A stretch of DNA of 64,000 bases from Gammaproteobacteria bacterium (GTDB taxonomy: Bacteria > Pseudomonadota > Gammaproteobacteria > Pseudomonadales > Pseudohongiellaceae): the NCBI GenBank assembly GCA_018661465.1, contig JABJIC010000028.1:186001-250000 (forward strand), read 5' to 3'. This document shows, piece by piece, positions 31,087 through 50,006 of the stretch. Position 1 is the stretch's first letter. The number at the start of each line of letters is the position of its first letter. The position numbers were made by a program, and so were the translations under genes. Below the pieces are notes generated by a model that was not told the DNA's origin, searched no databases, and saw only the letters and a program-made list of their open reading frames with translations.

Positions 31087-31163
31087 GCATCACAATTGTT
31101 TGCTCATAAATACGCACTCACAACTTACTTAAATATACAAAAACTGAATTGATAAAACACCCC

Positions 31164-32387: not shown

Positions 32388-32456
32388 TCCTCTCTCCAAG
32401 ATCTAATTACACAAGCTGATTAGCACAACCCGATTTATACAACTACAGGCTAGTAC

Positions 32457-33989
32457 ATGACACCAGTAATTGCTCTGGTGGGTCGGCCCAATGTGGGCAA
32501 ATCCACTCTATTCAACCGATTGACTCGAAGTCGAGAAGCACTAGTGGCTAATATGCCAGGGCTCACTCGTGATCGAAAATACGGTGAGGGCAAGATGGAC
32601 AATAAAAAGTTCATTTGCATCGATACCGGCGGTATTACTGGGGACGAAGAAGGCATCGATATGGAGATGGCTTCCCAGTCTCTTCTGGCTATCGAAGAGG
32701 CTAACATCTGTCTGTTTCTGGTAGACGCGAAGGACGGTTTGCTTCCAGATGATAGTCGAATTTTAGATCATCTACGTAAGCGTGAAAAAAATACCTACGT
32801 AATTGTTAATAAAGTTGATGGTCTGGATCCGGATCAAGCTCTCGCAGATTTTTACAGCTTTGGTTTTGCTCAGCTATTCCCAATTACTGCCACCCAGGGC
32901 CGAGGCGTAAAGGCCATGCTGGAAACAGTGCTGGCGGAATTTGACTATAAAGAAGAGCCAGATGAAGTAGTTGACGACCCTGCTCTTGGTATCAAGATAG
33001 CCATAGCGGGAAGACCAAATGTAGGCAAGTCGACCCTGGTCAATCGAATGCTCGGCGAAGATCGAGTCGTTGTTTATGATGAGCCAGGAACTACCCGAGA
33101 CAGTGTATACATACCATTCGAGAGACGCGGAAAGAAATATACGCTGATTGATACTGCCGGTATTAAAAAGCGAGGGAAGACCCGAGAGACAATAGAAAAA
33201 TTCTCTGTAGTGAAATCATTACAGGCAATTCAGGATGCGAATGTTGTTGTGCTAATCGTCGATGCTCAAACTGGCATCGTCGAACAAGATCTACACCTCC
33301 TTGGATACGTAATCGATACCGGTAGAGCTTTGGTTATTGCATTGAATAAATGGGATGGCATGGAGCTAGAGGCGAAGGAAAGAATTAACGAAGAAATTCG
33401 TCGCCGCTTTACCTTTGTTGATTTTGCCAAGATTCATTTTATATCCGCACTCCATGGTACTGGAGTGGGGGATCTCTATAAATCAATTCATACCGCCTAT
33501 GATTCTGCCCGTAAGCAGCTTGCTACAAACAAGTTGACTCTACTTTTACAGGACGCTGTAACCGATCATGCACCACCGGTTGTTAACGGAAGAAGAATTA
33601 AATTGCGCTATGCTCATGCTGGCGGTCAGAATCCACCAACAATTATAATTCATGGAAAGCAGACCGATAGAGTTCCCGCTTCTTACAGTCGTTATTTGGA
33701 AAAAACATTTCGAAGAGTTCTTAAGCTTGAAGGAACGCCTGTTCGTATTGAGTATAAAAGCGACGAAAATCCGTTTACAAAGCATGAGAAAAACCTTACT
33801 CAACAGCAAGTAGCACAGAAACGGCGAATTGCCAGGAATAAGGGCCTTGGCAAAGGTGTGGGCAAGGCCGCCAAGAAGACTGTCAGTGATCGCAAGGAAA
33901 GACAAAAGGTGGCAGCTGGCAGGCCCGGAACCAAAGGCAGTAAGCGCAACTCGCAAGTTGGCGGTAGCGGTCGCAGTAAGCCCAAATGA
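32457..33989 (+). CDS. der: Ribosome biogenesis GTPase Der (EngA)
   Basis: A 510-residue protein with two tandem GTPase domains, each with a P-loop (GRPNVGKSTLFNRL near residue 8; GRPNVGKSTLVNRM near 189), then a KH-like domain (about 370-450). The tail after about 455 is strongly basic (RKERQKVAAGRP, KGSKRNSQ) and may touch rRNA; the E. coli tail is shorter. Last gene of the conserved run. Confidence 0.97.
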   Translation: MTPVIALVGRPNVGKSTLFNRLTRSREALVANMPGLTRDRKYGEGKMDNKKFICIDTGGITGDEEGIDMEMASQSLLAIEEANICLFLVDAKDGLLPDDSRILDHLRKREKNTYVIVNKVDGLDPDQALADFYSFGFAQLFPITATQGRGVKAMLETVLAEFDYKEEPDEVVDDPALGIKIAIAGRPNVGKSTLVNRMLGEDRVVVYDEPGTTRDSVYIPFERRGKKYTLIDTAGIKKRGKTRETIEKFSVVKSLQAIQDANVVVLIVDAQTGIVEQDLHLLGYVIDTGRALVIALNKWDGMELEAKERINEEIRRRFTFVDFAKIHFISALHGTGVGDLYKSIHTAYDSARKQLATNKLTLLLQDAVTDHAPPVVNGRRIKLRYAHAGGQNPPTIIIHGKQTDRVPASYSRYLEKTFRRVLKLEGTPVRIEYKSDENPFTKHEKNLTQQQVAQKRRIARNKGLGKGVGKAAKKTVSDRKERQKVAAGRPGTKGSKRNSQVGGSGRSKPK

Positions 33990-34108
33990 TTCGACTCAAG
34001 CCCTGTAGCTTGATTCCTCCCGAGAACAGATATAAGGCCCAAGCCTGATTTGATGGCAGCTCCTATTGAGTTAGCCTCTTTTTGAGACAGACAAGCCAGG
34101 AGAGAAAA

Positions 34109-35092
34109 GTGAGTATTACCCTAAGCGATATTAAAAGTGCTGCCCAGCGCTTGAACGGTGTTGCAATACGAACTCCTCTACTTACTTCCGCTGTACTGGA
34201 TGAAAGGCTAGCCGCACGAGTTTACATTAAACCTGAATGCCTTCAACATATTGGCGCCTTCAAATTCCGTGGCGCCTATAACCGTATGAGCCAGTTATCG
34301 GATCAACAAAAAACGCTCGGGGTAGTTGCGTTTTCATCAGGAAATCATGCTCAGGGTGTTGCATACGCAGCGCAAATTATTGGAACGGCGGCCACCATAG
34401 TAATGCCGTCTGATGCTCCAAAAATTAAGTTGGAAAACACCAAACGATTGGGTGCCACGGTTCGTCTTTATGATAGGGGCACAGAATCTCGTGAAGAAAT
34501 AGCTGCAGAAATAGCTACTACCACTGGCGCCACTCTAGTCCCTGCATTCGATGACCTAGATATTATTGCAGGCCAAGGGACATGTGCTCTGGAGCTGATT
34601 GAGCAGTTGCATGAGAAAGAGTCTTCTCCCGACATTTTGCTATGTCCATGTGGTGGTGGCGGGTTATTAGCGGGCGTGTCCACTGCTGTAAAATCATTGC
34701 AGGGTGATTGCAAAATATATGGAGTTGAACCGGAAAATTACGATGATCATCTACAATCAAAACTAGCCGGTGAGAGAGTAACCATCAGCCCTCCTTGTGG
34801 AACGTCTTGTGATGCGCTTATGGCCACCAGTCCCGGAGAAATAACCTGGTCAATAAATAGCAATACTGTAGATGACTACCTGGTAGTAACTGAGGAAGAA
34901 GTGAAGCATGCTATCAGCTTTGCATTTCGTTATTTGAAAGTTGTAGTTGAGCCAGGTGGTGTAGTCCCATTAGCAGCATTGCTGAGTAATAAAATTGACG
35001 TCAAAGGTCAAACAGTAGCAATAATTCTCTCTGGTGGTAATATCGATTCGCAATCCTATTCCCTTTGCCTTGAGCAATATCCATCACCATAG
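34109..35092 (+). CDS. Threonine/serine dehydratase-type PLP enzyme
   Basis: A 327-residue fold-type II PLP enzyme without an ACT regulatory domain, the size of catabolic threonine dehydratase or serine racemase. The PLP lysine is in GAFKFRGAYNRM, the phosphate loop is CGGGGLLAG, and FSSGNHAQGVAYAA binds the substrate carboxylate. It probably deaminates L-threonine or L-serine, or interconverts hydroxyaspartate; sequence reading cannot decide. GTG at 34109 is used because AGGAG is seven bases upstream. Confidence 0.9.
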   Translation: MSITLSDIKSAAQRLNGVAIRTPLLTSAVLDERLAARVYIKPECLQHIGAFKFRGAYNRMSQLSDQQKTLGVVAFSSGNHAQGVAYAAQIIGTAATIVMPSDAPKIKLENTKRLGATVRLYDRGTESREEIAAEIATTTGATLVPAFDDLDIIAGQGTCALELIEQLHEKESSPDILLCPCGGGGLLAGVSTAVKSLQGDCKIYGVEPENYDDHLQSKLAGERVTISPPCGTSCDALMATSPGEITWSINSNTVDDYLVVTEEEVKHAISFAFRYLKVVVEPGGVVPLAALLSNKIDVKGQTVAIILSGGNIDSQSYSLCLEQYPSP

Positions 35093-35281
35093 AAAAATAC
35101 CTGTCACCATAAATAGTTTTTCTTAAGAGTGGGCTCGCAAACAATTTGTAACTGTGGCAATCAGTCTCTGGGATTCTGAAGTACAATCTTGAACTTGCTC
35201 ATTCAAACTTAAGATGTCAGGCCTAAAATTTCAAATGGAAAAACCCGAATAAATACTAGCGGCACATAGAGAGAGCTGAAT

Positions 35282-36730
35282 ATGAAAGCTAAAAATTACA
35301 TTTCCTACCTTCCGTTAATACTGCTCATTATGAGCGCGGGGACTTATTCTCAGGACCTCGATGATTGCGTCGATTCCCTTCAGTGTGAATCTTCCTGGAT
35401 TGGTCTTTCGGAAGATGATCGAGAGAGCGTTTTCGAGTTCGCAGAGGAATATAAAGATTTTATAAACCTCGCCAGAACTGAACTGAGCTTCGTAGATGAA
35501 GCAACCGCCTTCGCTGAAGCTAATGGATTTGAGCCGCTCACTTCTGCGACATCCCTGCGAGTTGGCACTCGAGTTTATGAAGTCAACAGAGATCGTACTA
35601 TCAGCCTGATGGTTATAGGTGAAAAATCCCTGACAGAGGGCTTTCACGTGATCGGCGCGCACATCGATTCTCCAAGACTTGAGTTAAAGGGACGACCTCT
35701 TTATGGCGACAGTGAATTCGCACTCTTCCAAACCAATTACCACGGTGGCATAAAATATCATCAGTGGACCAATATTCCGCTTGCCTTAATGGGACGTGTT
35801 GATAAGAAAGATGGAACCACGATTTCTATTTCTATCGGGCTGGACCGAGATGATCCTATCTTTATGATTCCGGAACTTTCTCCACATGTGGATAGAGGTC
35901 GAAACAGCGAAACACTAGGGAATTTCTTGAGACCTGAGGATATGGACCCGATCATTGCTCATGTACCCGGTGAGGGCGGAGAAGAAGTAGTAGATCAGGT
36001 TCTGGCATACCTCACGGACGAATATGGAATCAGCAGAGCTGACCTGGTTTCGGCAGAATTGTCTTTAGTTCCGGCGACAGCACCTCGAGACATGGGCTTG
36101 GATCGCGGGCTCATAGCTGCCTACGGGCAGGATGATCGGCTCGCATCCTATGCAGCGATGAGGGCAATTGCAGAGGTTGATCGCCCGCAGAAGACTACAA
36201 TGGCATTTCTTGTGGATAATGAAGAAGTCGGTAATCGAAACAATACCGGTGCAAGGTCAGATCATTTCAGTGATCTGCTTTCCCGACTTCTTTATGCAGA
36301 ACTGGGGGACGATTATCGAGAGCCTGTCTTCAGAGGCGCTCTGCGGCAAACCAAATTTATCTCCATAGATGTTAACCCAGGCATAAACCCGATCGACACA
36401 TCGGTATGGGAGAGTGGCAATGCTCCGAAGCTAGGCTATGGCGTTAATTTGAAACTCTATGGTCAGGGCAATACGGCTAACTCTGAATTTATTGCCTGGA
36501 CTCGCCAGCTGTTGGACGGCAATGACATTCCCTGGCAAACGGCTACGTATAAAGTCGGAGTCGGAGGCGGGGGAACTATCGGTGGTGAATTTTCCAGCCA
36601 AAATATCGAAGTTATTGATTTTGGTGTGCCCTTGCTTTCGATTCACACTCCTTACGCCGTCAGCTCAAAGATTGATGTCTACAGCTTGTATCGCGCTGCC
36701 CGTGCCTTCTATGCATATGTTGAGCAGTAA
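35282..36730 (+). CDS. Exported M18-family zinc aminopeptidase
   Basis: A 482-residue protein with signal peptide MKAKNYISYLPLILLIMSAGTYS, then the M18 (aminopeptidase I / aspartyl aminopeptidase) fold. Metal-binding and catalytic motifs: GAHIDSPRLELKGRPL (His and Asp), YGQDDRLASYAAM (bridging Asp), VDNEEVGNRNNTGAR (catalytic Glu) and the late IDFGVPLLSIHTPYAVSSK (final His). M18 enzymes are usually cytosolic, so the signal peptide is unusual and implies periplasmic or secreted peptide trimming, possibly feeding the peptide importer at 52-60 kb. Confidence 0.88.
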   Translation: MKAKNYISYLPLILLIMSAGTYSQDLDDCVDSLQCESSWIGLSEDDRESVFEFAEEYKDFINLARTELSFVDEATAFAEANGFEPLTSATSLRVGTRVYEVNRDRTISLMVIGEKSLTEGFHVIGAHIDSPRLELKGRPLYGDSEFALFQTNYHGGIKYHQWTNIPLALMGRVDKKDGTTISISIGLDRDDPIFMIPELSPHVDRGRNSETLGNFLRPEDMDPIIAHVPGEGGEEVVDQVLAYLTDEYGISRADLVSAELSLVPATAPRDMGLDRGLIAAYGQDDRLASYAAMRAIAEVDRPQKTTMAFLVDNEEVGNRNNTGARSDHFSDLLSRLLYAELGDDYREPVFRGALRQTKFISIDVNPGINPIDTSVWESGNAPKLGYGVNLKLYGQGNTANSEFIAWTRQLLDGNDIPWQTATYKVGVGGGGTIGGEFSSQNIEVIDFGVPLLSIHTPYAVSSKIDVYSLYRAARAFYAYVEQ

Positions 36731-36804
36731 AATTTGTCTGTAGTTAAAAAAAGTTAGAACAAGAGCTAGAGCTAAAGTTGAAGCAAAAGTAGATACAGCA
36801 GTCG

Positions 36805-37779
36805 ATGCAAAAAAAAGGGAATACGACAGTGCTACCAGAGGAGGTTTATTTTGAGGATTTGGGTAATGGAATTACCTGCATCGATACCATGCTTCAACGC
36901 AGGGGTTTGGCAAGCTGCTATCTAATAGAGCAGGAAGAAATGGCGGGCTTTATAGATACCGGCACTAATAACTCCATACCAATTCTTCTGGAAGTATTGA
37001 AGCGAAAGAAAATCCCCAGGGAAAATGTCGCCTATATCATGCCTACCCATGTTCACCTTGATCATGCCGGTGGAACCGGTGGCTTGATGCAGGAACTTCC
37101 GAATGCAGAGCTAATAGTCCACCCCAGAGGTGCTCGTCATATGATCGACCCCTCGAAGCTGGAACAAGGATCACTAGCGGTTTATGGTGAAACAGCATAC
37201 GCCAAGAGGTTTGGAGGACTAATTCCCGTAGACCCAGGCCGTGTAATTGAAGCCGCAGATGAATTTGAGATGGATTTTAATGGCAGGAAACTGCTGTTTC
37301 TGGATACTCAGGGTCATGCGAAGCATCACTATTGTGTTTTTGATGAACAGACTCAGGGTTTGTTTACAGGGGACACCTTTGGCGCGAGTTATCCCGAATT
37401 AAATTGGGGAAGGGCTCCACTAATTTTTCCACCGACAACACCAATCCATTTCGATCCGGCTGCGTGGTATGAGTCTTTAAAGCGGTTGATGTCGTTAGAC
37501 CCAAAACGAGTTTATTTAACCCATTTTGGCATGCATGAAAATGTCCCCGATCTTTATACTCAATTGAGGCTAACTATTAAGGACTACGCCGAGACTGCCC
37601 AGGAATTCAAATCAAGTGATAACTCTGAAAGAAGAATAGCTGATTCCATATTGCAATCTGCTATTAACCATCTACTCGACCAGCAATGTGGTGTCGATGT
37701 TGAAACCATCAAATCTCTCATTGGCGGAGATATGAAATTGAATGCTCAAGGTTTGCAGTACTGGTTGGAGAACAGCTAG
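36805..37779 (+). CDS. Metallo-beta-lactamase-fold hydrolase
   Basis: A 324-residue cytosolic protein. The metal site is His82-x-His84-x-Asp86-His87 (PTHVHLDHAGG), followed by DTQGHAKHHYCVFD, FTGDTFG and YLTHFGMHEN, giving a two-metal site. No catalytic domain fusion is seen; a C-terminal helical tail of about 90 residues follows. The substrate is unknown. The start ATG at 36805 has no strong ribosome site; GTG at 36829 is an alternative. Confidence 0.85.
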   Translation: MQKKGNTTVLPEEVYFEDLGNGITCIDTMLQRRGLASCYLIEQEEMAGFIDTGTNNSIPILLEVLKRKKIPRENVAYIMPTHVHLDHAGGTGGLMQELPNAELIVHPRGARHMIDPSKLEQGSLAVYGETAYAKRFGGLIPVDPGRVIEAADEFEMDFNGRKLLFLDTQGHAKHHYCVFDEQTQGLFTGDTFGASYPELNWGRAPLIFPPTTPIHFDPAAWYESLKRLMSLDPKRVYLTHFGMHENVPDLYTQLRLTIKDYAETAQEFKSSDNSERRIADSILQSAINHLLDQQCGVDVETIKSLIGGDMKLNAQGLQYWLENS

Positions 37780-37991
37780 ACAATCTCTTCCTAATGCTTT
37801 TACCTCTGCTCCTTTTAACTGTTCAAGCCCGATTCTTCGCTCCCCAATATGCTTCTCTCAGACTTATTAATAGGCCCAAGAGGCACACGCCTGAAATAAG
37901 GTCCGTTTTCCTCTTTTTATTAGTCATAGATATTCGTTAAGATGGGGCAGCAATTAATTTTAACGGAACTATCAGTGCAGTGAGCAATACA

Positions 37992-38786
37992 ATGAAGCTA
38001 CTAGCGGTAAAATCAAACTATCGAATGTTCTTCCTGTTATCCCTTTCTATGGTTAGCCTGTTTGCAAGTCAGCAATCTATGGCTCAGGAAGTAGGCGATC
38101 ATCAATACACCACCGAAGCGATTCAGGCAGGTTCCAGGGTCTATACCCAGCAATGTGCCCTCTGTCATGGGCCCCAAGGAGCTACGGTTGATGGCATCGA
38201 CCTGAGGCGAGGGCAGTTTCGCACCGCAACCTCAGATGATGATCTGCGTTCTGTAATCGCAGAAGGTGCGGCAGAAGGTCGAATGCCAGCCTTTAGTCTC
38301 AGTTCGGTGGAGCTAAGCGGCGTTATCGCCTTCATAAGAGCAGGCTTTGATCCAGATGGGATTGCAGTAAAGATCGGTGATCCCGTTCGTGGAAAGGCAT
38401 TGTTTGAAGGCAAGGGAGAGTGTGCGGATTGTCATCGAGTAAACGGGGTTGGTCCTAGAACAGCGCCTGACTTAAGTGATATTGGCGCCATTCGTACGCC
38501 TGCTTCTTTGCAGCGTAATCTTCTGGACCCAGCTACGGCATTGCTTCCCATAAATCGTCCAATAAGAATTGTCACTCGTAACGAAGAAACCATCGTTGGC
38601 CGCAGGCTTAATGAGGACACTTACACAGTGCAGGTTCTTGATTCCAATGAGAGGCTAAGGTCCTTGCGTAAATCCGACCTGGTGACCTACGAAATTAGCG
38701 ATGCACCATCTAAGCAACCCACAACTCTTTCCAGTGAAGAAGTAGCCGATGTGATCGGCTACATGCTTACCTTGCGAGGCCTGTAA
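37992..38786 (+). CDS. Exported di-heme-motif cytochrome c
   Basis: From ATG at 37992 (GTG at 37980 possible) the product has a signal peptide (FFLLSLSMVSLFASQQSMAQ) and two c-type heme sites: CALCH near residue 55 and CADCH near 142, each inside a small cytochrome c domain. Methionines in RMPAFS and elsewhere may be axial ligands. The stop overlaps the ATG of the PQQ dehydrogenase (TAATG), so this is very likely its electron acceptor in the periplasm. Confidence 0.9.
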   Translation: MKLLAVKSNYRMFFLLSLSMVSLFASQQSMAQEVGDHQYTTEAIQAGSRVYTQQCALCHGPQGATVDGIDLRRGQFRTATSDDDLRSVIAEGAAEGRMPAFSLSSVELSGVIAFIRAGFDPDGIAVKIGDPVRGKALFEGKGECADCHRVNGVGPRTAPDLSDIGAIRTPASLQRNLLDPATALLPINRPIRIVTRNEETIVGRRLNEDTYTVQVLDSNERLRSLRKSDLVTYEISDAPSKQPTTLSSEEVADVIGYMLTLRGL

Positions 38787-40456
38787 TGACACTAACTAAA
38801 CTACGTATAAAAACACTTATACTTTTCTGTGGCTCGGTATTGCTACTCTCGCAGAGCATGCTATCCAGCGCACAAGTTCCATATGAACGTATTCTCAATG
38901 CAGCTGATGAGCCAGAAAACTGGTTAACCTATAACGGCGGTTATTCAGCCCAGCGTCATAGCGCCTTGGATCAGATCAATGCGGACAATGTCGATAATCT
39001 TCAATTGCAATGGACGTTGCAGAATCAGGTTTTCGGTGCCTGGCAATCCAATCCTATTATTGTCGATGGGGTGATGTATGTAACCGAGCGACCTAATAGT
39101 GTAATGGCTGTTGATGCTGTTACTGGCCGAGTATTCTGGAAGTATCGTCACACTCCTGCTGAGAATTCTCTAGTTTGCTGTGGTGCGAATAATCGAGGTG
39201 TTGCTGTACTCGGAGATATGGTCTACATGGGAACTCTTGATGCTCGACTCGTTGCCCTCGATCGAGTGAATGGTCAGCCCTTGTGGGATGTAGAAGTAGG
39301 TGATGTTAATCAGGCCTACTCAGTTACCATGGCGCCATTAGCTGTTAAGGATAAAATAATAGTTGGTGTAGGCGGTGGTGAGTTTGGTATTCGTGGCTAC
39401 GTCGCTGCCTATGACGCCCTTACAGGTGAAGAGGCTTGGAAGACTTACACAATCCCTGGTCCTGGCGAGCCTAATCATGATTCCTGGGAAGGTGATGACT
39501 GGGAGCATGGTGGTGCGCCGGTGTGGATAACAGGGTCATTTGATCCAGAACTAAATCTAACCTATTGGGGCGTAGGTAATCCCGGCCCTGACTGGAATGC
39601 AGGACAACGGCCTGGAGACAATTTGTATTCTGACTCTGCTATCGCGCTTGATGCCGATACCGGAGAACTAAAATGGTATTTTCAATTCACACCTAACGAT
39701 GCATATGACTACGACTCGGTACAGGTGCCAGTTTTGGCAGACATAGTTTGGCGCGGTAGTCCGAAGAAGATAATGATGTGGGCTAATCGCAATGGTTACT
39801 TCTACGTTCTGGATCGTGTTACTGGTGAGTTCCTTGAAGGTAAGCCCTATGTGACTGTTAACTGGTCCAGCGGTCTTGATGAAAATGGCAGACCCATTCC
39901 AACACCTCAACCTGAAGGTATGCCAACCTTTCCGGGCAATCAGGGAGGCACTAACTGGTATCCACCTTCCTATAGTCCGAATACTGGACTCTTCTATTTC
40001 AGTGCGTGGAAGGACTATGCAACTATCTATCGAGCAGAAGAATCTGATTATGTTCCGGGCCGGGCATTCCTCGGTGGAGGCTTCTCAGTTTTAGCCCCGG
40101 CGCCAGGTGCTCCAACAATCGGGATCGGTCGAACCAATCCTATTAACAACTGGACTAACGAAGTAGGTCACGCCTCACTGAAGGCTATGGACCCTCAAAC
40201 TGGTGAAGCGGTGTGGAGCTATGATCAATTCGATGTTAGTGATAGCGGTATGTTAACTACTGGTTCGGACCTACTTTTTACAGGTGGAAGAGAAGGTTAT
40301 TTTCATGCAATCGATGCAAAAAATGGTGACCTGTTGTGGAACGTAAATCTGGGAGGTCAGATCGTAATGGCTCCGGTGACTTTTATGGTTGATGGCATTC
40401 AGTATGTATCAGTTATTTCCGGACACGCACTTTCAACTTTTGCGCTTCGAAATTAG
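38786..40456 (+). CDS. PQQ-dependent alcohol dehydrogenase, lanthanide-type motif
   Basis: A 556-residue periplasmic quinoprotein: signal peptide to about residue 30 (SMLSSAQ), then an eight-bladed propeller. Neighbouring Cys131-Cys132 (SLVCCGANNRG) form the disulfide ring over PQQ. Asp308-Tyr309-Asp310 (AYDYDSVQV) places a catalytic Asp and, two residues on, the extra Asp that marks lanthanide-dependent (XoxF/ExaF-type) enzymes; calcium-type enzymes have Ala or Ser there. The substrate is an alcohol or aldehyde, not further defined. It is co-translated with the cytochrome c. No pqq synthesis genes are in the window. Confidence 0.88.
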   Translation: MTLTKLRIKTLILFCGSVLLLSQSMLSSAQVPYERILNAADEPENWLTYNGGYSAQRHSALDQINADNVDNLQLQWTLQNQVFGAWQSNPIIVDGVMYVTERPNSVMAVDAVTGRVFWKYRHTPAENSLVCCGANNRGVAVLGDMVYMGTLDARLVALDRVNGQPLWDVEVGDVNQAYSVTMAPLAVKDKIIVGVGGGEFGIRGYVAAYDALTGEEAWKTYTIPGPGEPNHDSWEGDDWEHGGAPVWITGSFDPELNLTYWGVGNPGPDWNAGQRPGDNLYSDSAIALDADTGELKWYFQFTPNDAYDYDSVQVPVLADIVWRGSPKKIMMWANRNGYFYVLDRVTGEFLEGKPYVTVNWSSGLDENGRPIPTPQPEGMPTFPGNQGGTNWYPPSYSPNTGLFYFSAWKDYATIYRAEESDYVPGRAFLGGGFSVLAPAPGAPTIGIGRTNPINNWTNEVGHASLKAMDPQTGEAVWSYDQFDVSDSGMLTTGSDLLFTGGREGYFHAIDAKNGDLLWNVNLGGQIVMAPVTFMVDGIQYVSVISGHALSTFALRN

Positions 40457-40484
40457 TAGCAGAGATTCTGTCTACTATTCCAAA

Positions 40485-40518
40485 TTTAACAGGAGTCCAC
40501 ATGGGCTCCTGTTAAAAT
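40485..40518 (+). terminator. Long hairpin after the PQQ dehydrogenase
   Basis: TTTAACAGGAGTCC (40485-40498) and GGGCTCCTGTTAAA (40503-40516) form 14 pairs (one G-U) around ACAT, 28 bases after the stop. Downstream is AAAAT rather than a T-run, so it may protect the mRNA 3' end or act as a weak terminator. Confidence 0.5.
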
Positions 40519-40904
40519 AGAAACACCTGTGATTGTTAAGGGGCTAGCGCTGCTCCGTAAGCTTTAACAGCTCATTTATCGTACCTATTGAGCAACCCAG
40601 AGCCCCTTCCTCCGGTGAGTCTAAAGTCTGTCTGATATGCTTGTTGTGCTGTCATCAAGGAGAAGGCATTAAGATCGAAGTAAATCCCCCCTACAAGTCA
40701 CAAATTGCTACAAATCAAACGAGAACTCCTGAAGCCTTGTGCCCTCTTGCTGTCTATGGACTAAGCCGTGGAAATCCTTACAGTTTCGGCCCCTACAGCT
40801 CAAATAATCATAGTCTGAGCACTGATTTCTTGGTACTTTTAGCCGGTTAAAGTGAATCGCGTTCCCTTCGGATCGCTTTTTGAAAAGTTATAAGTGAGGA
40901 AATT
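40519..40904. other. Non-coding gap before the second PQQ dehydrogenase
   Basis: About 390 bases without a convincing gene. A 69-codon frame (40641-40850) opens with TTG, has no ribosome site and no recognisable protein features. I cannot name a promoter with confidence; a GTGAGGAAATT ribosome site immediately precedes the ATG at 40905. Confidence 0.5.
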
Positions 40905-42962
40905 ATGCAAGCTCCAATTACTGGAAGAATTACAGGGAAATTAGCATCGGCATTCGCTGCTGCAGTTCTGCTGACTTCTTCAGGCCTTGCGGCCGCTCAG
41001 GACATTCCACTATTCAATACAGAACCGGATGAGTGGTACACGCTGGGGGGTGACTATGCCCATACTCGTTTTACTCCAGCCGATGAGATTACAGCAGAGA
41101 ATTTCTCTGACCTCGAAGTTGCCTGGGAATGGGATGGTGCTAGCTTCAACGCGATCAGTGGTCGTTCGACTCCGTCTTTGATTGACGGCAAGTTGATTAC
41201 CGTTGCCGGTAACAAGCGTTATGTTATCGCTATTGATCCGAAGACTGGTGACACTATTTGGACATACCGTGAGCCGGATACTGGCCGTGCTGCATACTCT
41301 ATGCGTGCCGATTATGGTAAAGGTGTGGGTTATGGAGAAGTCGATGGCCGAGGCGTTATCTATATTGTCTCTCCTGCGTTTTTTCTCACCGCATTAGATG
41401 CAGAAACTGGTGTTCCTCTTGAAGGTTTTGGTCGACCAGTTCCAATTGATGGTTTTCCTGAAACCGGGGTTGTGGATCTGATTGCCGATCTTGGTCATCC
41501 ATATGACCCATACGATGGTATTCCTCTTGAAACTGGTTACATCACTTCATCATCTCCGCCTATCGTTGTTAATGACACTGTAATCGTCGGTAACTCAGCC
41601 GAGCAGGGTTACCATCAGGCACGTATTGAAAACGTACCCGGTGACATTCTTGCTTATGATGCGAGAACTGGCGCACTGAAGTGGAAATTCAACGTAATTC
41701 CCAAGCCGGGTGAGTACGGTCATGAAACCTGGGAGAACGATGCCTGGGAATGGACCGGTGATGTTTCTTCCTGGGCGCCACTGACGGCTGACCCTGTAAA
41801 CAATCTGGTATATATCCCGACTAACAGTGCCACCATCGATTATTACGGCGGCTTTCGACCCGGCGACAATCTCTACGGTGCAGCTCTGATCGCTCTCGAT
41901 GTTGAAACCGGTGAGCGTGCATGGCACTTCCAGATGGTGAAGCATGAGATCTGGAATTTTGACAATCCAACGGCTCCAGTACTTCTTGATTTGAATATGC
42001 CTGGTCGCGGTACCGTGCCTGCAGTAATGCAGATAACAAAACAAGCTTGGGTATACGCGTTCAATCGTGTAACTGGTGAGCCACTGTGGCCGATCGTCGA
42101 TCGTCCGGTTCCGCCTTCGATTGTACCTGGTGAAGTATTGTCACCCACTCAACCACACGTAACCAAGCCCGCTGCTTACGATATGCAGGGTATTACTGAA
42201 GATGATCTAATTGATTTTACTCCCGCATTGAGAGCAGAAGCTTTGGAAGTAATGGATGACTACGTTATGGGTCCTCTGTTTAATCCGCCAATTCATGCTG
42301 ACAATGCGATGGGCAAATACGCTGCAATGAATTGCCCAGGTGGTGCTGGTGGTTCAAATATCACTGCGCCTGCAGTCGCTGATCCGACTACGGGTATGCT
42401 CTATGTTTCTTCCCATAAGGCTTGTTTTACATTGCGCCTGATTCCTGGTGAAGAATCTGATCTGTTATTTCCGAACTCAACAGGAACCACCACAGCCCGT
42501 TATGCTAACGGTGCCCGTGGCGCTACCGCCAGAACTCCTAGATTGGCGTCCGGTATTCCAATCTGGAAGCCGCCCTATAGCCGCATCACTGCGATAGATA
42601 TGAACACCGGTGAGCACGCCTGGATGATTCCAACTGGTGAGACTCCAGATCGAATCAAGAACAGCCCGGCGCTGGATGGTGTTGATATTGGTAATACAGG
42701 TACAGGCGCCTTGGTGCCTATGGTTGTAACCGCCAATATGCTGATCTATTCTGATCAGGCAAGCGATGGAACTCCAATGCTATACGCAATCGATAAAGCC
42801 AGTGGCGACATTGTTGGTGAAATCGAAGCGCCAGCGAGAAGTAGCTACGGCATGAGCTCCTGGGTCCTGGACGGACACCAATACATCATGTTGCAGACTG
42901 GCTCCAAGCTAACTGCCATGGCATTGCCAGGTGCGCGTGACGAGGGTGGTGACGCTCACTAA
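40905..42962 (+). CDS. PQQ-dependent dehydrogenase, glucose-dehydrogenase-like, soluble
   Basis: A 685-residue exported quinoprotein with signal peptide (LASAFAAAVLLTSSGLAAAQ) and repeated propeller blades (VIAIDPKTGDTIW, ILAYDARTGALKW, ALIALDVETGERAW, AIDKASGDIVGE). It lacks the N-terminal membrane domain of Gcd. At the active site HEIWNFDNPTAP has Asn351 where Gcd has catalytic Asp (WDMD) but keeps the Asp two residues later (Asp353). It may oxidise sugars or polyols. It is closed by a strong terminator and followed by an SMP-30/gluconolactonase, which suits an aldose-to-lactone-to-acid route. Confidence 0.82.
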   Translation: MQAPITGRITGKLASAFAAAVLLTSSGLAAAQDIPLFNTEPDEWYTLGGDYAHTRFTPADEITAENFSDLEVAWEWDGASFNAISGRSTPSLIDGKLITVAGNKRYVIAIDPKTGDTIWTYREPDTGRAAYSMRADYGKGVGYGEVDGRGVIYIVSPAFFLTALDAETGVPLEGFGRPVPIDGFPETGVVDLIADLGHPYDPYDGIPLETGYITSSSPPIVVNDTVIVGNSAEQGYHQARIENVPGDILAYDARTGALKWKFNVIPKPGEYGHETWENDAWEWTGDVSSWAPLTADPVNNLVYIPTNSATIDYYGGFRPGDNLYGAALIALDVETGERAWHFQMVKHEIWNFDNPTAPVLLDLNMPGRGTVPAVMQITKQAWVYAFNRVTGEPLWPIVDRPVPPSIVPGEVLSPTQPHVTKPAAYDMQGITEDDLIDFTPALRAEALEVMDDYVMGPLFNPPIHADNAMGKYAAMNCPGGAGGSNITAPAVADPTTGMLYVSSHKACFTLRLIPGEESDLLFPNSTGTTTARYANGARGATARTPRLASGIPIWKPPYSRITAIDMNTGEHAWMIPTGETPDRIKNSPALDGVDIGNTGTGALVPMVVTANMLIYSDQASDGTPMLYAIDKASGDIVGEIEAPARSSYGMSSWVLDGHQYIMLQTGSKLTAMALPGARDEGGDAH

Positions 42963-43011
42963 TCGCCAGCCCTGTTTGTAACAAAAAACAGGGAAATATA
43001 GGCTAAATCAG

Positions 43012-43048
43012 AAGGGGCAGAGTTCGCATTGAGCTCTGCCCCTTTTTT
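43012..43048 (+). terminator. Rho-independent terminator of the second PQQ dehydrogenase
   Basis: GGGGCAGAG (43014-43022) pairs with CTCTGCCCC (43034-43042), followed by six T residues. A second hairpin without T-run (CCCTGTTT/AAACAGGG, 42970-42993) precedes it. Confidence 0.92.
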
Positions 43049-43134
43049 ATGGTGATAGAAGGACTTATGATGCTAGAGGACGGTTAGCCTGTACTAGAAA
43101 ACAATTGGTAGAAAAATAATACGAGGGTGAGCAT

Positions 43135-44169
43135 ATGAAGCGAAGAACATTTCTTACCGCCAGCCTGGCAACGACTGCAGCCTTGCCATTCCTGAGTGCT
43201 GCGCAGCCTCAAATTCCCGAATATGAGCAGAGGGACTGGTCCGGAAATACGCCACTGCGCTATCCGGACCCTGATCTCATCGCCCTCGATCCGCGATTCC
43301 AACGATATATCCTTTTCAATACGCCCATAAGACGTCACCACGTCGGAACTCTCTGGGCGGAGGGTCCAGCGTGGAATGGTGTGGGCAAATATCTTGTGTG
43401 GAGTGATATTCCCAATAATCATCAGCTGAGGTGGCTAGAAGATGACAATCAAGTAACGGTTTTCCGCAGCCCTTCAGGCAACAGTAACGGCAATACCTTC
43501 GACTATGAGGGCCGCCAACTCTCTTGTGAACATGGCGGGCGCCGAGTTGTACGTTATGAGTATTCAGGCGAGGTGACTGTCATTGCTGATAGCTATGATG
43601 GAAAGCCGCTGAATTCTCCCAACGATGTAATAGTACATCCAGATAAAAGCATTTGGTTTACCGACCCTCCCTATGGTGTGCGAGGCAACTATGAAGGAAG
43701 TCGAGCGGATGCTGAGCTTCCGCTGTCTGTTTATCGTGTCGATGGCGTGACGGGTCGAATAACTAAGCTAACAGATGATATAGGGGCTCCAAACGGATTG
43801 TGCTTTTCTCCTGAGCATGATCGACTTTATGTTGCAGATACCGGTAGCGGTAGAGAAATTAAAGTATGGGATATCGACGGGGAAGAAATTCGTAATGGCC
43901 GACGACATGCTCAGCTAACTTTGCCAGGAACAGATTCTATTACCAGTGCGGACGGCATACGCTGTGATGTAGACGGCAATATTTGGGCTGGAGCACGACC
44001 GGGTGTTCAGGTGGTAGCTCCCGATGGCGACACCATCGGAGTTATTCGTTTGCCAGAGGTCTGTGCCAATGTTTGTTTTGGTGGTGTGGGTCGGAACAGA
44101 CTATTCATGACAGCGAGTCAGTCACTCTACTCGGTTTATGTCGGGGTAAGAGGAGCGGGTGTTGCCTGA
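43135..44169 (+). CDS. Tat-exported SMP-30/gluconolactonase-family hydrolase
   Basis: A 344-residue six-bladed propeller enzyme. The N-terminus MKRRTFLTASLATTAALPFLSAA is a twin-arginine signal (RRTFL). Family residues: WAEGPAWN (metal Glu), CEHGGRRVVR, LNSPNDVIVHPDKSIWFTDPPYG (metal Asn), APNGLCFSPEHDRLYVADTG and SADGIRCDVDGNIWAG (metal Asp). SMP-30 enzymes hydrolyse sugar lactones. Tat export implies a periplasmic site with the metal loaded inside the cell. Placed after a glucose-dehydrogenase-like quinoprotein, it may open that enzyme's lactone product. Confidence 0.9.
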   Translation: MKRRTFLTASLATTAALPFLSAAQPQIPEYEQRDWSGNTPLRYPDPDLIALDPRFQRYILFNTPIRRHHVGTLWAEGPAWNGVGKYLVWSDIPNNHQLRWLEDDNQVTVFRSPSGNSNGNTFDYEGRQLSCEHGGRRVVRYEYSGEVTVIADSYDGKPLNSPNDVIVHPDKSIWFTDPPYGVRGNYEGSRADAELPLSVYRVDGVTGRITKLTDDIGAPNGLCFSPEHDRLYVADTGSGREIKVWDIDGEEIRNGRRHAQLTLPGTDSITSADGIRCDVDGNIWAGARPGVQVVAPDGDTIGVIRLPEVCANVCFGGVGRNRLFMTASQSLYSVYVGVRGAGVA

Positions 44170-44223
44170 TTTTGAAAACTGCTCAGCGGAAGTACATAAT
44201 TTGTGATGGCTGATAGTGATAGC

Positions 44224-45348
44224 CTAACTTTTCGAAAGGGTATTTTTTGATGTAGCGAATCTGGAGAGGTTTAGTTCTTCTCGAACTTGTTGTCCTAAAT
44301 CAGTTTCCATGTTGTCCACAGGGATTCCGATGGAGTCAGCGATTCTCACCATACGCTGAAAATTTGCTGCAACACCGGCAGCATCTACCAGGACGTTTCC
44401 ACCAGCTTTGGCCAGTAGTGCCTCTCTAGATTCAGAGAGTGAAACAGCCTCACCGCTTGCCAGAGCCTCAGCAAATTTCATCAATTCTTCGCCGTGTTCT
44501 ATTCCTGTGGCTGCTGCTGAGGCATCGCCATTGACACCCTGGATGTCGATTTCAGTTTGATTGGTCAGCGCGCTCGCACGGAGCATCGATGCATGTGCAC
44601 TGGTTCAGTAGAAACACTGGTTAATAGCGGACACTCGTCCTGCGACTAGTTCCATCTGCATGCGATCGATACTGCGATCTTCTTGCTTGAACATGCTTCC
44701 CATTCCTTCCATGGAAAGGTATTGCGCGTTTGAGACCTTCATCCAGCCCCTTAAGGCATCTGGAACAAGACTGAGCGCTCTTAACACATTGGCTGTCCGC
44801 CCGTTTGGCCAAAGATCTGCTTCTTCACCCACTGCGCCATCTGCAGGAATTGTGGGAACGAAGCCGATGTCATCGCGGAGATGCTGAGGTCGATGCAGAG
44901 AAGGTTCGCCCGATTGTGCTTCGGGCAAAGGCTCTGGGTTCAACCCTAGAGCTCGATTAAATTCGTCAATACTGAATAGAGTAACCGTAATGCCAGTCAG
45001 CTCCACATAGGCTTCCTTAGATAGACCCTGGTTTGCATTGTTTTCCACCCATGCACGGGTGATTCGAGTTTGGTCGGTAATTATTCGATGGATGGCATCT
45101 ACGGCGATAGCAGGCAATGATGTGCTGCAGCTGTGTTCACCTTCAAAATGATAGGGAGAAAGAGCTTGCTTACGATCGGTGCAATAGTTGCAGGAATAGG
45201 CATTTCTGACTTCCTGGGCAATTTCTACACGCTGAGCACCGGTCCACCAGTTGCCAGGCAAGGACAGCGACGTCCAATATTCCTGGTAAGCGTCCTTGAT
45301 GTCTTGCCGAATAGGGAACTGGCAATCACTGTATTGAAATTGACTCAT
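44224..45348 (-). CDS. AhpD/carboxymuconolactone-decarboxylase-like protein with in-frame UGA: probable selenoprotein
   Basis: One frame of 374 codons from ATG 45348 to the stop at 44224, broken only by TGA at 44607-44605. Read through, it gives Cys245-Phe-Tyr-Sec248 then TSAH, so UGA replaces the second Cys of the AhpD CxxC motif. Glu233, Cys245 and His252 sit at the spacings of Glu118, Cys130 and His137 of Mycobacterium tuberculosis AhpD, where Cys133 is the reactive thiol. The N-terminal half has its own CNYC (residues 53-56). Hairpin-forming sequence follows the UGA. AhpD enzymes reduce peroxides through a thiol pair. The gene follows pckA by 36 bases. A nonsense mutation or sequencing error is the alternative. 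Confidence 0.82.
44566..44602 (-). promoter_or_regulatory. Candidate bacterial SECIS hairpin
   Basis: Just after the in-frame UGA, CAGTGC (44602-44597) can pair with GCGCTG (44571-44566), one G-U included, and GCA/TGC closes a TCGA loop inside (44592-44583). An alternative uses GCAC (44598-44595) with GTGC (44579-44576). The distance to UGA suits SelB recruitment, but the fold was drawn by eye and is not unusual enough alone. Confidence 0.35.
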
Positions 45349-45384
45349 TCAGCTCTCACCCATTCCCTCTAGGTTTTTCAAGCC

Positions 45385-47004
45385 CTAGCTTTCTAACTGC
45401 GGACCCGCTGCTACCAGTTTTTTACCTTCGTCGGTATCGGTAAACTTCTCGAAGTTCTTCACAAATAACTCGGCAAGGTTTCTCGCCTTTTCATCCCATT
45501 CAGCAGGATTATCATAGGTATTGCGAGGATCGAGAATGCCGTTGTCTACCGCATCGATATTCAAAGGTACATCGAGATTGAAGTAAGGCAGAGTAAAAGA
45601 CTCTGCATTATCGATGGAGCCATTCAAAATGGCATGGATAATTGCTCGAGTGGCTTCGATGGATATTCTTTTGCCGGTACCGTTCCATCCAGTGTTAACT
45701 AGATAAGCTGTTGATCCGGTTGCTTCCATTCGCTTCACTAGCTCTTTTGCATACTTGGTAGGGTGCAAGGAAAGAAAAGCAGCACCGAAGCAGCTTGAGA
45801 ATGTTGGAGTAGGCTCGGTAATTCCGCGCTCAGTACCAGCAAGCTTAGCCGTAAAACCAGAAAGGAAGTGATACTTCGTCTGCTCGGGGTCCAGTTTCGA
45901 AACTGGAGGTAGTACACCAAAAGCGTCGGCAGTGAGAAAGATCACTTGCTTGGCGTGGCCACCTTTTGACACCGGCTTAACTATATTTTCAATGTGGTAA
46001 ATAGGATAAGAAACCCGAGTGTTCTCTGTTTTCGAGTTATCGGTATAGTCGATCACGCCACCATCATTTACAGTCACGTTTTCCAGCAATGCATCTCTTC
46101 GAATGGCATTGTAAATGTCTGGCTCGCTTTCTTTGCTCAGATTAATAGTCTTTGCATAACAGCCGCCTTCGAAATTGAAAACGCCATCGTCATCCCACCC
46201 GTGTTCGTCATCGCCGATGAGAGCGCGCTCGGGGTCGGTGGAGAGGGTGGTCTTACCGGTTCCTGACAAACCAAAGAAGATAGCCGTATCTCCGTCACTG
46301 CCAATATTTGCTGAACAGTGCATGGAAGCCATGCCGTTAAGCGGAAGCAGGTAGTTCATCATTGAGAACATACCCTTCTTCATTTCTCCGCCATACCATG
46401 TGCCGCCGATCAGCTGGATTTTTTCTGTAAGATTAAAGGCGACGAAATTCTCGGAATTCAGACCCAGGTCCTGCCATTGAGGATTGGTACATTTAGCGCC
46501 ATTCATCACGACGAAATCTGGTTCGAAGCCTTCCAGCTCTTCTTCGCTGGGTCGGATAAACATGTTCTTCACGAAGTGCGCCTGCCAGGCAACTTCCATA
46601 ACAAATCGTACTTTGAGTTGGCTGTTCTTGTTGGCACCACAGATGGTGTCCATGACATAGAGGCGTTTACCACTCAATCGATCGGTCACCAGTGACTTAA
46701 GGTGATCCCAGGTATCCTGCTCTATAGGCTTGTTGTCATTCTTGCCTTGATCGGACCACCATACAGTGTCTCTGCTAGTGTCATCGCGGACAATATACTT
46801 ATCTTTTGGGGAGCGCCCGGTAAATATACCGGTGTCTACGGCTATAGCACCTGAATCGGTGAGCTTGCCCTGTTCATATCCTTCCAGATCAGGATTGGTT
46901 TCGTGCTCAAACAGCAGCTCATAGGAGGGGTTGTAAAAAACCTCATCGACATTGTTAATACCGTACTGCCCGAGATCTGGTGTCTTGATTGAATTTCCTG
47001 TCAC
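45385..47004 (-). CDS. pckA: Phosphoenolpyruvate carboxykinase (ATP)
   Basis: Makes phosphoenolpyruvate from oxaloacetate and ATP in gluconeogenesis. 539 residues, usual for the ATP form. [31 protein letters not shown], the kinase-1a loop [19 protein letters not shown] and [16 protein letters not shown] are present. GTG at 47004 follows AAGGG by eight bases. Growth on acids or amino acids is implied. Confidence 0.97.
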
Positions 47005-47320
47005 GCTTCTGACCCTTCTAGGTTTTATTTAAGTATTTTGCAGCATGAAAGCGCAGCCGCGATTGCAGGTATTGTACTCAGACTGACCTCGAATTCACAT
47101 TAGCAAAAGCAGGAATAGATCAAATATTTTGGAATTATTTGTAACGCACGGGTCAGCTGGTTTTCTGTGCTTGGCTTTAGTGGCAGGCTGCGGTTCACGC
47201 CTTGATTTACTCGCTTGAATTACTTGGATTTATTCTTCTAGTGTAGTTCAGATGAGCCGGTACGAGGAGCCGATCGGGGTGAGCTGTTGATGATGAGCTA
47301 TTATTATGAATTCCTTATTA
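47005..47320. other. pckA upstream region
   Basis: About 316 bases between pckA and the thioesterase stop. On the minus strand TACAAT (47076-47071) could be the pckA -10, with only a poor -35 (TGTGAA) 17 bases upstream. The part 47280-47320 is AT-rich. I see no gene. Confidence 0.4.
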
Positions 47321-47707
47321 TTAGAAAAGGGCAAAGCTGCCACTGGCTTTCGCCACCAGCTGGCCATCGCTAAAAACCTCGGACTCCACCATGGCAACTC
47401 GCCGACCTTTCTTCAGTACTACCGACCTGCTCATCAAGTCATTTGTTCCCGCTGGGCTGAGATAAGTCATCTTGATTTCGATGGTGGCGCAACGCTCACC
47501 CTTCTCCAGTAAAGAGAATACAGCGGCACCCATGCAAGTATCCGCCAAGGAATATATAGCTCCTCCATGTACCACCTTATTGGGGTTGTCCAGTTTGGGG
47601 TCGAAGGGAAGCGATGAGACGGATTTGCCATCAGCACAACTGATAACTTCCATGCCAAGTAGCTCGGCAAATGGATGGCTGCTTTTCGATGAGTCTGAAT
47701 CTGGCAT
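47321..47707 (-). CDS. PaaI-family hotdog thioesterase
   Basis: A 128-residue single-domain acyl-CoA thioesterase. NKVVHGGAIYSLADTCMGAA contains the family HGG and the helix with the catalytic Asp; the C-terminal strands include KGRRVAMVESEVFSDGQLVAKASGSFAL. PaaI/YbgC-like enzymes hydrolyse aryl or acyl-CoA thioesters, often as housekeeping. The exact acyl group is unknown. AGGAAAG precedes ATG. Confidence 0.88.
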   Translation of the reverse strand: MPDSDSSKSSHPFAELLGMEVISCADGKSVSSLPFDPKLDNPNKVVHGGAIYSLADTCMGAAVFSLLEKGERCATIEIKMTYLSPAGTNDLMSRSVVLKKGRRVAMVESEVFSDGQLVAKASGSFALF

Positions 47708-47793
47708 TGTGTCCGTCTTTCCTATTATGAGAAGCCTCTTATGAGGAGGCTATAGCGAGAAGCCTGTAATGGGCAGGCACGAGTGAGCAAGTA

Positions 47794-48210
47794 TCAAGGG
47801 GCAGGAATGATGTTCAATGTTTCTAAAGTAGGGGAGTTGGCTTTGAGATCCTGTGCTCCTGACGGGAAGTTATTAACTTGCAGTAGAAAGGCCAGTAAAT
47901 CCTGATAGGTTTCTGTGCCCAGGCTTGCAGGGCGGTCAGAGGGCATGTTCTCGCGCATTTTGGTGTAGAGCTCGGCAAGGCTGCGACCTTCCCAGATAAA
48001 CATAAAGCTCATTCCTAACAGACTGGGAGTGTTGCTGTTTCCCCCGAGGTTACTGCCATGACAAGATTCACAATTTGCTCGGTAAGCCAGTTGCCCGCGG
48101 CTCGCTTGTTCTTCGCTGTAGACTCCATCCCAGATATTTGTCTGTGCAAATAGTGGAGATGTGGAGGCGCAGACTAACAACAATGAAATAACAAAGTTAA
48201 ATTTTCCCAT
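47794..48210 (-). CDS. Exported mono-heme cytochrome c
   Basis: Using ATG at 48210, two bases after the upstream dehydrogenase stop, gives 138 residues with signal peptide MGKFNFVISLLLVCASTSPLFA. The heme site is CESCH (RANCESCHGSNLGG) and a Met in MRENMPSD is a candidate sixth ligand. It is probably the electron acceptor for the PQQ dehydrogenase directly upstream. Confidence 0.92.
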   Translation of the reverse strand: MGKFNFVISLLLVCASTSPLFAQTNIWDGVYSEEQASRGQLAYRANCESCHGSNLGGNSNTPSLLGMSFMFIWEGRSLAELYTKMRENMPSDRPASLGTETYQDLLAFLLQVNNFPSGAQDLKANSPTLETLNIIPAP

Positions 48211-48212
48211 AG

Positions 48213-50006
48213 CTATTTTTCCGGCAGGGCGAAGACATGCATAGCATTGCCATTTCGTGGACGTTTCAATTCGCTTGCCAATTGCCGAGGTAGCGAGGCG
48301 GCCCAACTCGCTCCGCTGGTGCCAGAGGGCAGGGCGATATATTGCCGGCCATCGACTTCATAGGATATAGGAAAGCCTTGAGCAGAGGTGGTGACTCTGG
48401 TTTGCCAAAGTACTTCTCCATTTTCGGCATCCAGGGCGTACATTTTTCGATCCCAGTCGCCGAAAAACACCAAGCCGCCACCGGTAGTCAGAGCCGCCGT
48501 ATTAACCGGAGCGCGAGATCGAAATCGCCATTTAACTTCGCCGCTGGGGATGTCCAATACCAGAAGCTCGCCAAGATTATCGCCGGCATCCGGGTGTGGG
48601 TAATTAATGCGCCTCACTGGACCGGTTCCGCCGCCACCTAATTCTCGTTCCGTTGGACCGAAGGTGGCGAGTTCACAATTCAGGGTGATGGGGATATACA
48701 TGGCGCTGGTTTGTGGGGAATAGGCCATCGCTCTCCAGCTCTTAAAACCGGAGGTGCTGGGACACATATCGATCTGCTCACCAATGCGGGGAATCATCCC
48801 ATCACGATATCGAACGGAACCGGTCACCGGGTCTACGTTTACGATATTCTGATACCCAATATCGGTGGCTTTTATGACTTCGCCACTGACTCTATCCAGT
48901 TCCCAGAGAATGCCCAGCTTGCCCATCTTGAACAGAGACTGTCGGCCATCGATATCAACGAGAATGTTCTCAAATACCTCATCCATGTCCTGAGTTTCTC
49001 CAGGAAGGTGTTGGTAGTACCAGATCATCTCCCCGGTGTCAGGATTAAGTGCCAGAGTAGAATTAGTATAGAGAGCATCGGCATCTGTTCCTCGCACGGC
49101 CCTTGCCCAGGGCTTTGCCTGAGCCGTTCCCCAGTAAATCAAATTGGTTTTCGGGTCATAAGACCCGGCAATCCAGGCATCGGATCCTGCGCGAAATCTC
49201 AGCGGTAAATCATCCCAGGTGTCGCCACCGGGCTCTCCGGGACGGGCGACGGTTGAAGTTCGCCACAATTCTTCTCCACTCTCCGAATCGTGTCCGGTGA
49301 TGAAGCATACGTCCTCTTTGTAGCGGCCGCAACCACTGATGCCAGTTATGAGTTTTCCATCAGCGATGATGGGGCCGGCAACATAAAAATAGCCTAACTC
49401 AGGATTCGCTGTCTGGGTTTCCCAAACTAATCGACCTGTTCTAATGTCGATAGCCACGATACTTGCGTTCTCGGTAGCGGCATATATCTTATCTCCATAG
49501 ATCGCGATGTTTTTCTGAACACCTCTGCCAACGCCTGCATAGGCGGTGGCCGCCATCACAGATTGAACTCTTTCTTCGGCCGGAACTGCGGCAGCTATGG
49601 AGCCTTCCAGAGCTTCGGTGATGCCTGGCCTATATTCCCAGATCAGGTCGCCAGTGGCCGCATTAAGCGCCTGTATTACTCCGCGAGGTGCCGGAATGAA
49701 CATCACTCCATCATGAACCAGAGGGGCTGCTTCGCCGGCTCCGGTGTCATCCATGGCCCAGGACCAGACCAGTTGTAGCTGATCCACATTGTCAGTATTA
49801 ATTTGACTAAGCGAGCTATATCCCCAGGAAGCAGTATTGCCTCGCCAACTTAGCCAGTCTCCGGGGAGAGGATTGTTCAGGGTATCATCCGTGACCGGGG
49901 CGATATCTGACAGCTGGCTGAATGCCATGGTGCTGAAGATGAATAGCATGCAAGCCATTAGAAAGTGGTAAAACTTGTTGACTCTATGCAGGCTGGAACA
50001 ATTCAT
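48213..50006 (-). CDS. PQQ-dependent dehydrogenase (third)
   Basis: A 597-residue quinoprotein with signal peptide (FHLLMACMLFIFSTMAFS region, about 1-30). Blade repeats include VIQALNAATGDLIWEY, IVAIDIRTGRLVWE, ALDAENGEVLWQT and LLVLDIPSGEVKWRF. The active-site segment is ETQDMDEVFENI with Asp340-Met-Asp342, the same D-x-D spacing as lanthanide-type enzymes. The Cys pair expected over PQQ is not adjacent; Cys226 and Cys234 (GISGCGRYKEDVCF) are the nearest. Two bases separate it from the cytochrome c. AGGGG precedes ATG. Confidence 0.85.
   Translation of the reverse strand: MNCSSLHRVNKFYHFLMACMLFIFSTMAFSQLSDIAPVTDDTLNNPLPGDWLSWRGNTASWGYSSLSQINTDNVDQLQLVWSWAMDDTGAGEAAPLVHDGVMFIPAPRGVIQALNAATGDLIWEYRPGITEALEGSIAAAVPAEERVQSVMAATAYAGVGRGVQKNIAIYGDKIYAATENASIVAIDIRTGRLVWETQTANPELGYFYVAGPIIADGKLITGISGCGRYKEDVCFITGHDSESGEELWRTSTVARPGEPGGDTWDDLPLRFRAGSDAWIAGSYDPKTNLIYWGTAQAKPWARAVRGTDADALYTNSTLALNPDTGEMIWYYQHLPGETQDMDEVFENILVDIDGRQSLFKMGKLGILWELDRVSGEVIKATDIGYQNIVNVDPVTGSVRYRDGMIPRIGEQIDMCPSTSGFKSWRAMAYSPQTSAMYIPITLNCELATFGPTERELGGGGTGPVRRINYPHPDAGDNLGELLVLDIPSGEVKWRFRSRAPVNTAALTTGGGLVFFGDWDRKMYALDAENGEVLWQTRVTTSAQGFPISYEVDGRQYIALPSGTSGASWAASLPRQLASELKRPRNGNAMHVFALPEK

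Follow-up and report, generated by a model that had tools for sequence, protein, structure and literature searches.

A 64,000-nucleotide stretch of genome from a gammaproteobacterium of the Pseudohongiellaceae (contig JABJIC010000028.1 of assembly GCA_018661465.1, positions 186,001 to 250,000; hereafter the window) carries on its minus strand a gene with a single in-frame TGA codon. The frame opens with ATG at 45348 and runs through 247 sense codons to the TGA (44607-44605), then through a further 126 sense codons to a TAG at 44226-44224. The initial annotation had described this 374-codon frame, with 247 codons before the TGA and 126 after, and both its coordinates and its residue context read as claimed. 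The residues flanking codon 248 are N-Q-C245-F-Y-[UGA248]-T-S-A-H252, with Glu233 12 residues N-terminal of Cys245 and His252 four residues past codon 248. From the evidence that follows, it is very likely that this UGA is read as selenocysteine (Sec).

44224..45348, minus strand: complete coding sequence of 374 residues, member of NF041238; UGA at codon 248, stop codon TAG
44605..44607, minus strand: in-frame UGA at codon 248 (predicted Sec), replaced by TGC in one natural paralogue

Profile matching places the gene in the already curated family NF041238 (AhpD_rel_CFYUT), at 459.2 bits against a cut-off of 175 over positions 1-356 of the 357-position profile, and the C-F-Y-U-T motif of the family is present as CFY-UGA-T. 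The family is an equivalog described as alkylhydroperoxidase-related (seleno)protein, and the accessible text of PMC13188914 equates it with the AhpD-related 'hypothetical protein 1' of the Sargasso Sea metagenome selenoproteome. Translation with table 11 yields at this locus an open reading frame (ORF) of 247 amino acids and a separate one of 120. Annotation had been predicted to split the gene in this way, and the same is seen among its relatives known as proteins rather than DNA (the best 120 of 1287 matches, one of them the window's own piece). These are N-terminal pieces, mostly of about 247 residues and mostly without a name or called 'hypothetical protein', and every one of them breaks off after CFY or CYY, at the expected place of the UGA. 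Such endings would also fit a real stop at codon 248, with a functional 247-residue product and the downstream frame a relic.

The DNA of related loci speaks against that explanation. Relatives were checked for a Cys codon (TGC or TGT) aligned at codon 248, and TGA was retained in 92 of 92 loci. These comprise 12 from a search of the order, including the window's own copy (L023), and 80 of 124 relatives, on named genome contigs; the two collections overlap, with duplicates such as L021 and L130, and the 92 loci are therefore not 92 independent genes. After removal of L097 and L129 (short start, frame break) and of identical copies, 85 sequences were left, of which 77 at less than 90% identity form the set of relatives used below. 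Their terminal stops are mixed (TGA 29, TAG 26, TAA 22), so that the invariant TGA at codon 248 is no stop-codon habit. Median dN/dS was 0.224 before and 0.223 after the UGA (73 pairs of relatives), and because it is equal on both sides and TGA is kept at every locus, the frame around the UGA is not a product of chance. Both observations count against a real stop, as do the synonymous constraint over a downstream hairpin and the existence of a full-length Cys paralogue, both described below, and the encoding of the catalytic His252 and the remaining CMD fold past the UGA; termination at codon 248 is very improbable. That the TGA is a sequencing error, or that UGA is read as an ordinary amino acid, is a negligible prospect: the same TGA occurs in many separate assemblies, 29 of the relatives use TGA as their terminal stop, and no support for either was found.

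The machinery for Sec insertion is encoded in the same genome. The initial annotation had proposed a check for selA, selB, selD and tRNA-Sec (selC), and all four are present in the window's own genome (37 contigs, 97.7% complete), the three proteins at 576.6, 402.2 and 272.5 bits, respectively, all over cut-off, and tRNA-Sec at 64.9 bits, with the anticodon tca (UCA) according to ARAGORN. Across 293 genomes of the order, the family exceeds its cut-off in 12 (14 matches, one TGA each) and selA is found at E 1e-60 in 39, among which are all 12 family carriers (Fisher 5.9e-12, uncorrected for relatedness). The selA gene lies within the flanks of the family gene in 5 of 77 loci, where approximately 0.22 loci would be expected by chance in 4-Mb genomes. 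In three of these (L106, L112 and L117) selA is transcribed divergently, the selA match and the start of the family gene being 86-113 bp apart; in L029 selA lies approximately 220 bp downstream on the same strand, and in L099 selA and selB lie approximately 3 kb and 1 kb upstream of the family gene. On the tree, L112 and L117 are sisters, while the other selA-adjacent loci lie apart. The SelD of the window's genome (L019, G000:C16:43268-44185) is contained in a 788-residue open frame whose N-terminal part resembles FAD/NAD oxidoreductases, similar to the Ndh-SelD fusions named in the accessible text of PMC2398784.

A homologue with Cys aligned at codon 248, which had been suggested as a further check, was found once. 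Forty-six rows from 32 genomes include 42 with TGA and four without; three of the latter do not span the site, and the fourth is the one full-length copy without a stop (G1114:C41, P0125). It shares 37% identity with the window protein, exceeds the NF041238 cut-off at 348.9 bits, and reads ECFYC, with TGC at the UGA position preceded by TAT. In this copy TTA-AAG replaces CTC-CGT and pair 27-33 of the hairpin described below is broken, which shows, in one case and at the level of sequence, hairpin loss accompanying the absence of UGA. Searches of 5.8 billion proteins for Cys forms gave two matches with residues 249-374, both C-terminal ORF pieces starting after the UGA, and none with the distant member P0124; both searches need shared short words and miss U-bearing records by identity, and so lower the likelihood of Cys forms without excluding them. 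In a family-wide genome search every match listed, down to E 9e-110, has at least one TGA. Some assemblies hold several copies: G1199, estimated to be 8% contaminated, has five separate family copies with TGA, and G1114 and G1180 have five family matches each, some of them pieces, with one G1114 copy (C346) split over two frames.

Downstream of the UGA lies a conserved hairpin of the type known as the bacterial selenocysteine insertion sequence (bSECIS), numbered here with the U of UGA as 1.

44572..44584, minus strand: apical stem-loop GCUC-CGUGC-GAGC of the predicted bSECIS, nucleotides 24-36

When synonymous codon bias was tested in 334 columns against each gene's own usage, the four highest-ranking codons were 247 (TAC in 75 of 77), 256 (CTC 73, CTT 4), 259 (AGC 61, AGT 16) and 257 (CGT in 59 of 63 Arg); codon 258 ranked sixth, behind codon 126. 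Tyr codon 247 (44608-44610), which together with codon 256 has the strongest bias, stands just before the UGA and outside the hairpin, and perhaps reflects an upstream context favouring Sec insertion. The Ser126 codon, also biased (AGT or AGC in 72 of 74 sequences, z 16.4), is far from the hairpin. In the hairpin, nucleotides 24-27 pair with 33-36 around a loop at 28-32 that is usually CGUGU or CGUGC, and RNAalifold returned the same stem plus pair 23-37 from 30 sequences chosen from 86 distinct ones. Pair 27-33 is C-G in 73 relatives, U-A in three and U-G in one; the paired changes in L093 and L106 (CTT with GTA) leave both amino acids unaltered. The pairing and covariation score of the 30 sequences was reached by 5 of 500 shuffles. 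The accessible text of PMC13188914 gives as bSECIS limits a loop of 3-9 nt, a stem of 4-16 bp, a G in the first two loop positions and a distance of 16-37 nt from the UGA. The initial annotation had called for a bSECIS prediction after the UGA, and the conserved hairpin lies within these limits, with the 5-nt loop CGUGC, a stem of 4-5 bp, G second in the loop and a distance of 24 nt. With sel genes and tRNA-Sec present, TGA kept in relatives, the hairpin conserved and a Cys homologue in existence, the case for a selenoprotein is the strongest that sequence alone could provide.

The equivalents of the AhpD catalytic residues lie in the C-terminal half, and the N-terminal half is predicted to resemble it in fold.

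44884..45348, minus strand: predicted N-terminal CMD/AhpD-like domain, residues 1-155, without the Glu/His relay (predicted structure)
45181..45192, minus strand: Cys53-x-x-Cys56 of the N-terminal domain, conserved without exception in the 77 relatives
44281..44874, minus strand: C-terminal AhpD-like domain, residues 159-356
44650..44652, minus strand: Glu233, proton-relay equivalent of AhpD Glu118
44614..44616, minus strand: Cys245, equivalent of AhpD Cys130 and predicted resolving Cys
44593..44595, minus strand: His252, equivalent of AhpD His137

PF02627 (CMD) is the sole Pfam match at E <= 1 (28.3 bits against a gathering threshold of 23, residues 221-264) and was matched in 48 of 48 aligned family members at E <= 0.1; residues 1-155 gave no convincing Pfam domain by sequence. 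The spacing of Glu, Cys, UGA and His had been likened to the AhpD catalytic set, and it is identical to that of the relay Glu118, Cys130, Cys133 and His137 in the accessible text of PMC3141380. None of the 77 relatives departs from the pattern Glu-x11-Cys-x-x-Sec-x3-His. Structure prediction suggests that the protein folds as two fused AhpD-like domains, in which helices 37-50 and 54-61 of the N-terminal domain correspond to 229-242 and 246-262 of the C-terminal one. The original description as an AhpD-like selenoprotein thus holds for an AhpD-related Sec family but not for a plain AhpD, since a second CMD/AhpD-like domain is predicted for residues 1-155. Elsewhere in the same genome, a 389-residue frame (G000:C28:22880-23779, L131-L133) has three CMD matches in a row.

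Taken together, sequence and predicted structure make it probable that the gene encodes an NF041238 selenoprotein with SECIS-aided insertion of Sec248 and two fused AhpD-like domains, acting as a selenol/thiol peroxidase or related oxidoreductase. By analogy with Cys133 of AhpD, we infer that Sec248 would be the residue that reacts with peroxide. The Glu233/His252 relay would activate the Sec248 selenolate, which would attack the hydroperoxide substrate, and Cys245 would then close a Se-S bond. That bond would be reduced by the N-terminal Cys53/Cys56 or by an external dithiol, the choice of electron donor being the least certain step.

A more specific version, which we put forward tentatively, is a Sec-dependent enzyme of Sestrin architecture, that is, a fused AhpD dimer with a C-terminal Cys-Sec peroxidatic site and a relay-less N-terminal CxxC as donor. 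If this is true, a single chain carries both reduction steps and the invariant N-terminal CxxC is a built-in electron donor. The same tentative proposal holds that the lineage depends almost wholly on selenium, with one Cys form against TGA in all other site-spanning copies seen, and that the family gene lies repeatedly near selA/selB. Another possibility, which we likewise hold only loosely, is that the N-terminal CxxC domain, instead of being a redox partner, has a structural or metal-binding role in the pseudo-dimer, in which Cys53, Cys56, His72 and His87 could hold a metal. The conservation of these residues (each of the two Cys and His87 in 77 of 77 relatives, His72 in 75) agrees with it, as does an N-terminal domain without the relay Glu and His and with Lys or Arg at position 60 in 75 of 77, whereas the predicted position of the CxxC, which matches that in the C-terminal domain in lying at the start of the helix next after that of the relay, does not. 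It is also conceivable, if rather doubtful, that a Sec enzyme of the same fold performs other chemistry, such as reductive dehalogenation (as Bmp8) or peroxiredoxin-disulfide reduction, in place of direct peroxide reduction. Bmp8-like dehalogenation fits the predicted fold nearly as well, but the full AhpD relay is invariant in all 77 relatives, and the two-domain Sestrin2 reduces cumene hydroperoxide according to the accessible text of PMC4674687.

Several observations weigh against the proposed two-domain, SECIS-aided peroxidase. The sole natural Cys homologue comes from an assembly estimated to be 7% contaminated (G1114), for which reason it could belong to another organism; that assembly also holds full-length TGA copies. 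Covariation in the hairpin is thin, and its single pair with both sides changed was matched by 95 of 500 shuffles, so that codon constraint is the stronger argument for the hairpin. The bSECIS free-energy criterion is -7.5 kcal/mol or below, and the conserved window hairpin, held in place, has -11.2 kcal/mol though it is not the best fold; the full 50 nt of window RNA fold best otherwise (-16.6), with a probability of 0.0001 for the conserved pairs. The ribosome covers the bases directly after the UGA. Masking 8, 9 or 12 of them makes the conserved hairpin the most stable structure (-8.0 kcal/mol), a rank that it gains only when at least 8 nt are omitted as ribosome-covered. Of the 77 relatives, only 51 attain the -7.5 kcal/mol limit with the hairpin held in place, and 52 give the conserved pairs a probability above 0.5 once 12 nt are masked. 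Comparison of the N-half with the C-half by hhalign gave a probability of 1-2%, no significant sequence-profile relation, and the tandem-domain reading consequently rests on predicted structure. Foldseek returned no match at E 0.001 for either model, and the best Z for the N-half was 8.8, a level at which shared arrangement can suffice for helical proteins to match. Finally, no neighbouring gene names a substrate, and the most widespread neighbour cluster is limited to 12 of 77 loci.

The neighbourhood and spread of the gene are given for context.

45385..47004, minus strand: ATP-dependent phosphoenolpyruvate carboxykinase, a same-strand neighbour whose end lies 36 nt upstream of the gene (context only)

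PQQ-type proteins surround the gene (window 31149-50006), at 31149-32387 (PQQ_2 repeats), 38786-40456, 40905-42962 and 48213-50006, and c-type cytochromes are found at 37980-38786 and 47794-48306. The most frequent neighbour cluster, that in 12 loci with the window included, consists of ORFs of about PQQ-region length. Within one family of the order, NF041238 exceeds its cut-off in 137 of 206 genomes, and outside the window's own genome no match at E 1e-30 was found in 369 genomes of the class and 398 of the phylum. L116, a family member whose contig carries the label Verrucomicrobiales, is placed among gammaproteobacterial sequences by the tree, possibly through binning error or transfer.

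The locus is a clean example of a gene cut in two by annotation, the listed pieces of its relatives ending before the predicted catalytic Sec. The tandem-domain reading would give NF041238 a testable mechanism and, through predicted structure, would tie a functionally uncharacterised selenoprotein to the Sestrin fold; the accessible text of PMC11429811 notes that Sestrin homologues are difficult to recognise in prokaryotes. A literature search mostly outside subscription journals yielded, in the texts accessible, no account of the family as two-domain and no activity assay.

Compared with known systems, the likeness to Sestrins (human Sestrin2, PMC4674687; 9% identity) lies in two AhpD-like domains in one chain and comes from predicted structure. 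The window protein has the full catalytic set and predicted Sec in its C-terminal domain, whereas in Sestrin2, as far as the accessible text goes, it is the N-terminal domain that is active, with a single Cys. The DDYDY-type motif for GATOR2 that the accessible text of PMC11429811 places in the Sestrin hinge is absent from the window protein sequence, whose C-terminal domain is predicted to keep a helix instead. YciW, a Rokubacteria CMD protein and a Corynebacterium alkylhydroperoxidase, Sestrin analogues in that same accessible text, likewise have a tandem AhpD-like architecture in bacteria, and no Sec form of them is named there. Against the YciW-related (seleno)protein family NF053654 (NCBIfam) the window protein scores 12.6 bits, with a cut-off of 310. 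Bmp8 is not known to contain Sec. This debrominase (PDB 6ohi), a 187-residue chain of 13-14% identity, appears similar to the window protein by predicted fold only. Relative to AhpD and 'peroxidase-related' proteins (TIGR01926; PDB 6k40, 2oyo, 3c1l; M. tuberculosis AhpD 1gu9), the window protein has predicted Sec for the second Cys and adds a predicted N-terminal CMD-like domain with its own CxxC, and it falls below the cut-offs of both TIGR00777 (19.3 against 191.95) and TIGR01926 (42.3 against 81.8). The accessible text of the 2005 Sargasso Sea paper (PMC1088965) offers no functional evidence beyond the CxxU and counts 7 and 5 Cys homologues in its table, compared to the one full-length form here. 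With NF041238 itself the window protein shares the full-length match, the CFYU-T motif and the CxxU redox motif, and nothing sets it apart; what is new here is the predicted architecture and the nearly exclusive use of Sec in a family that had already been named.
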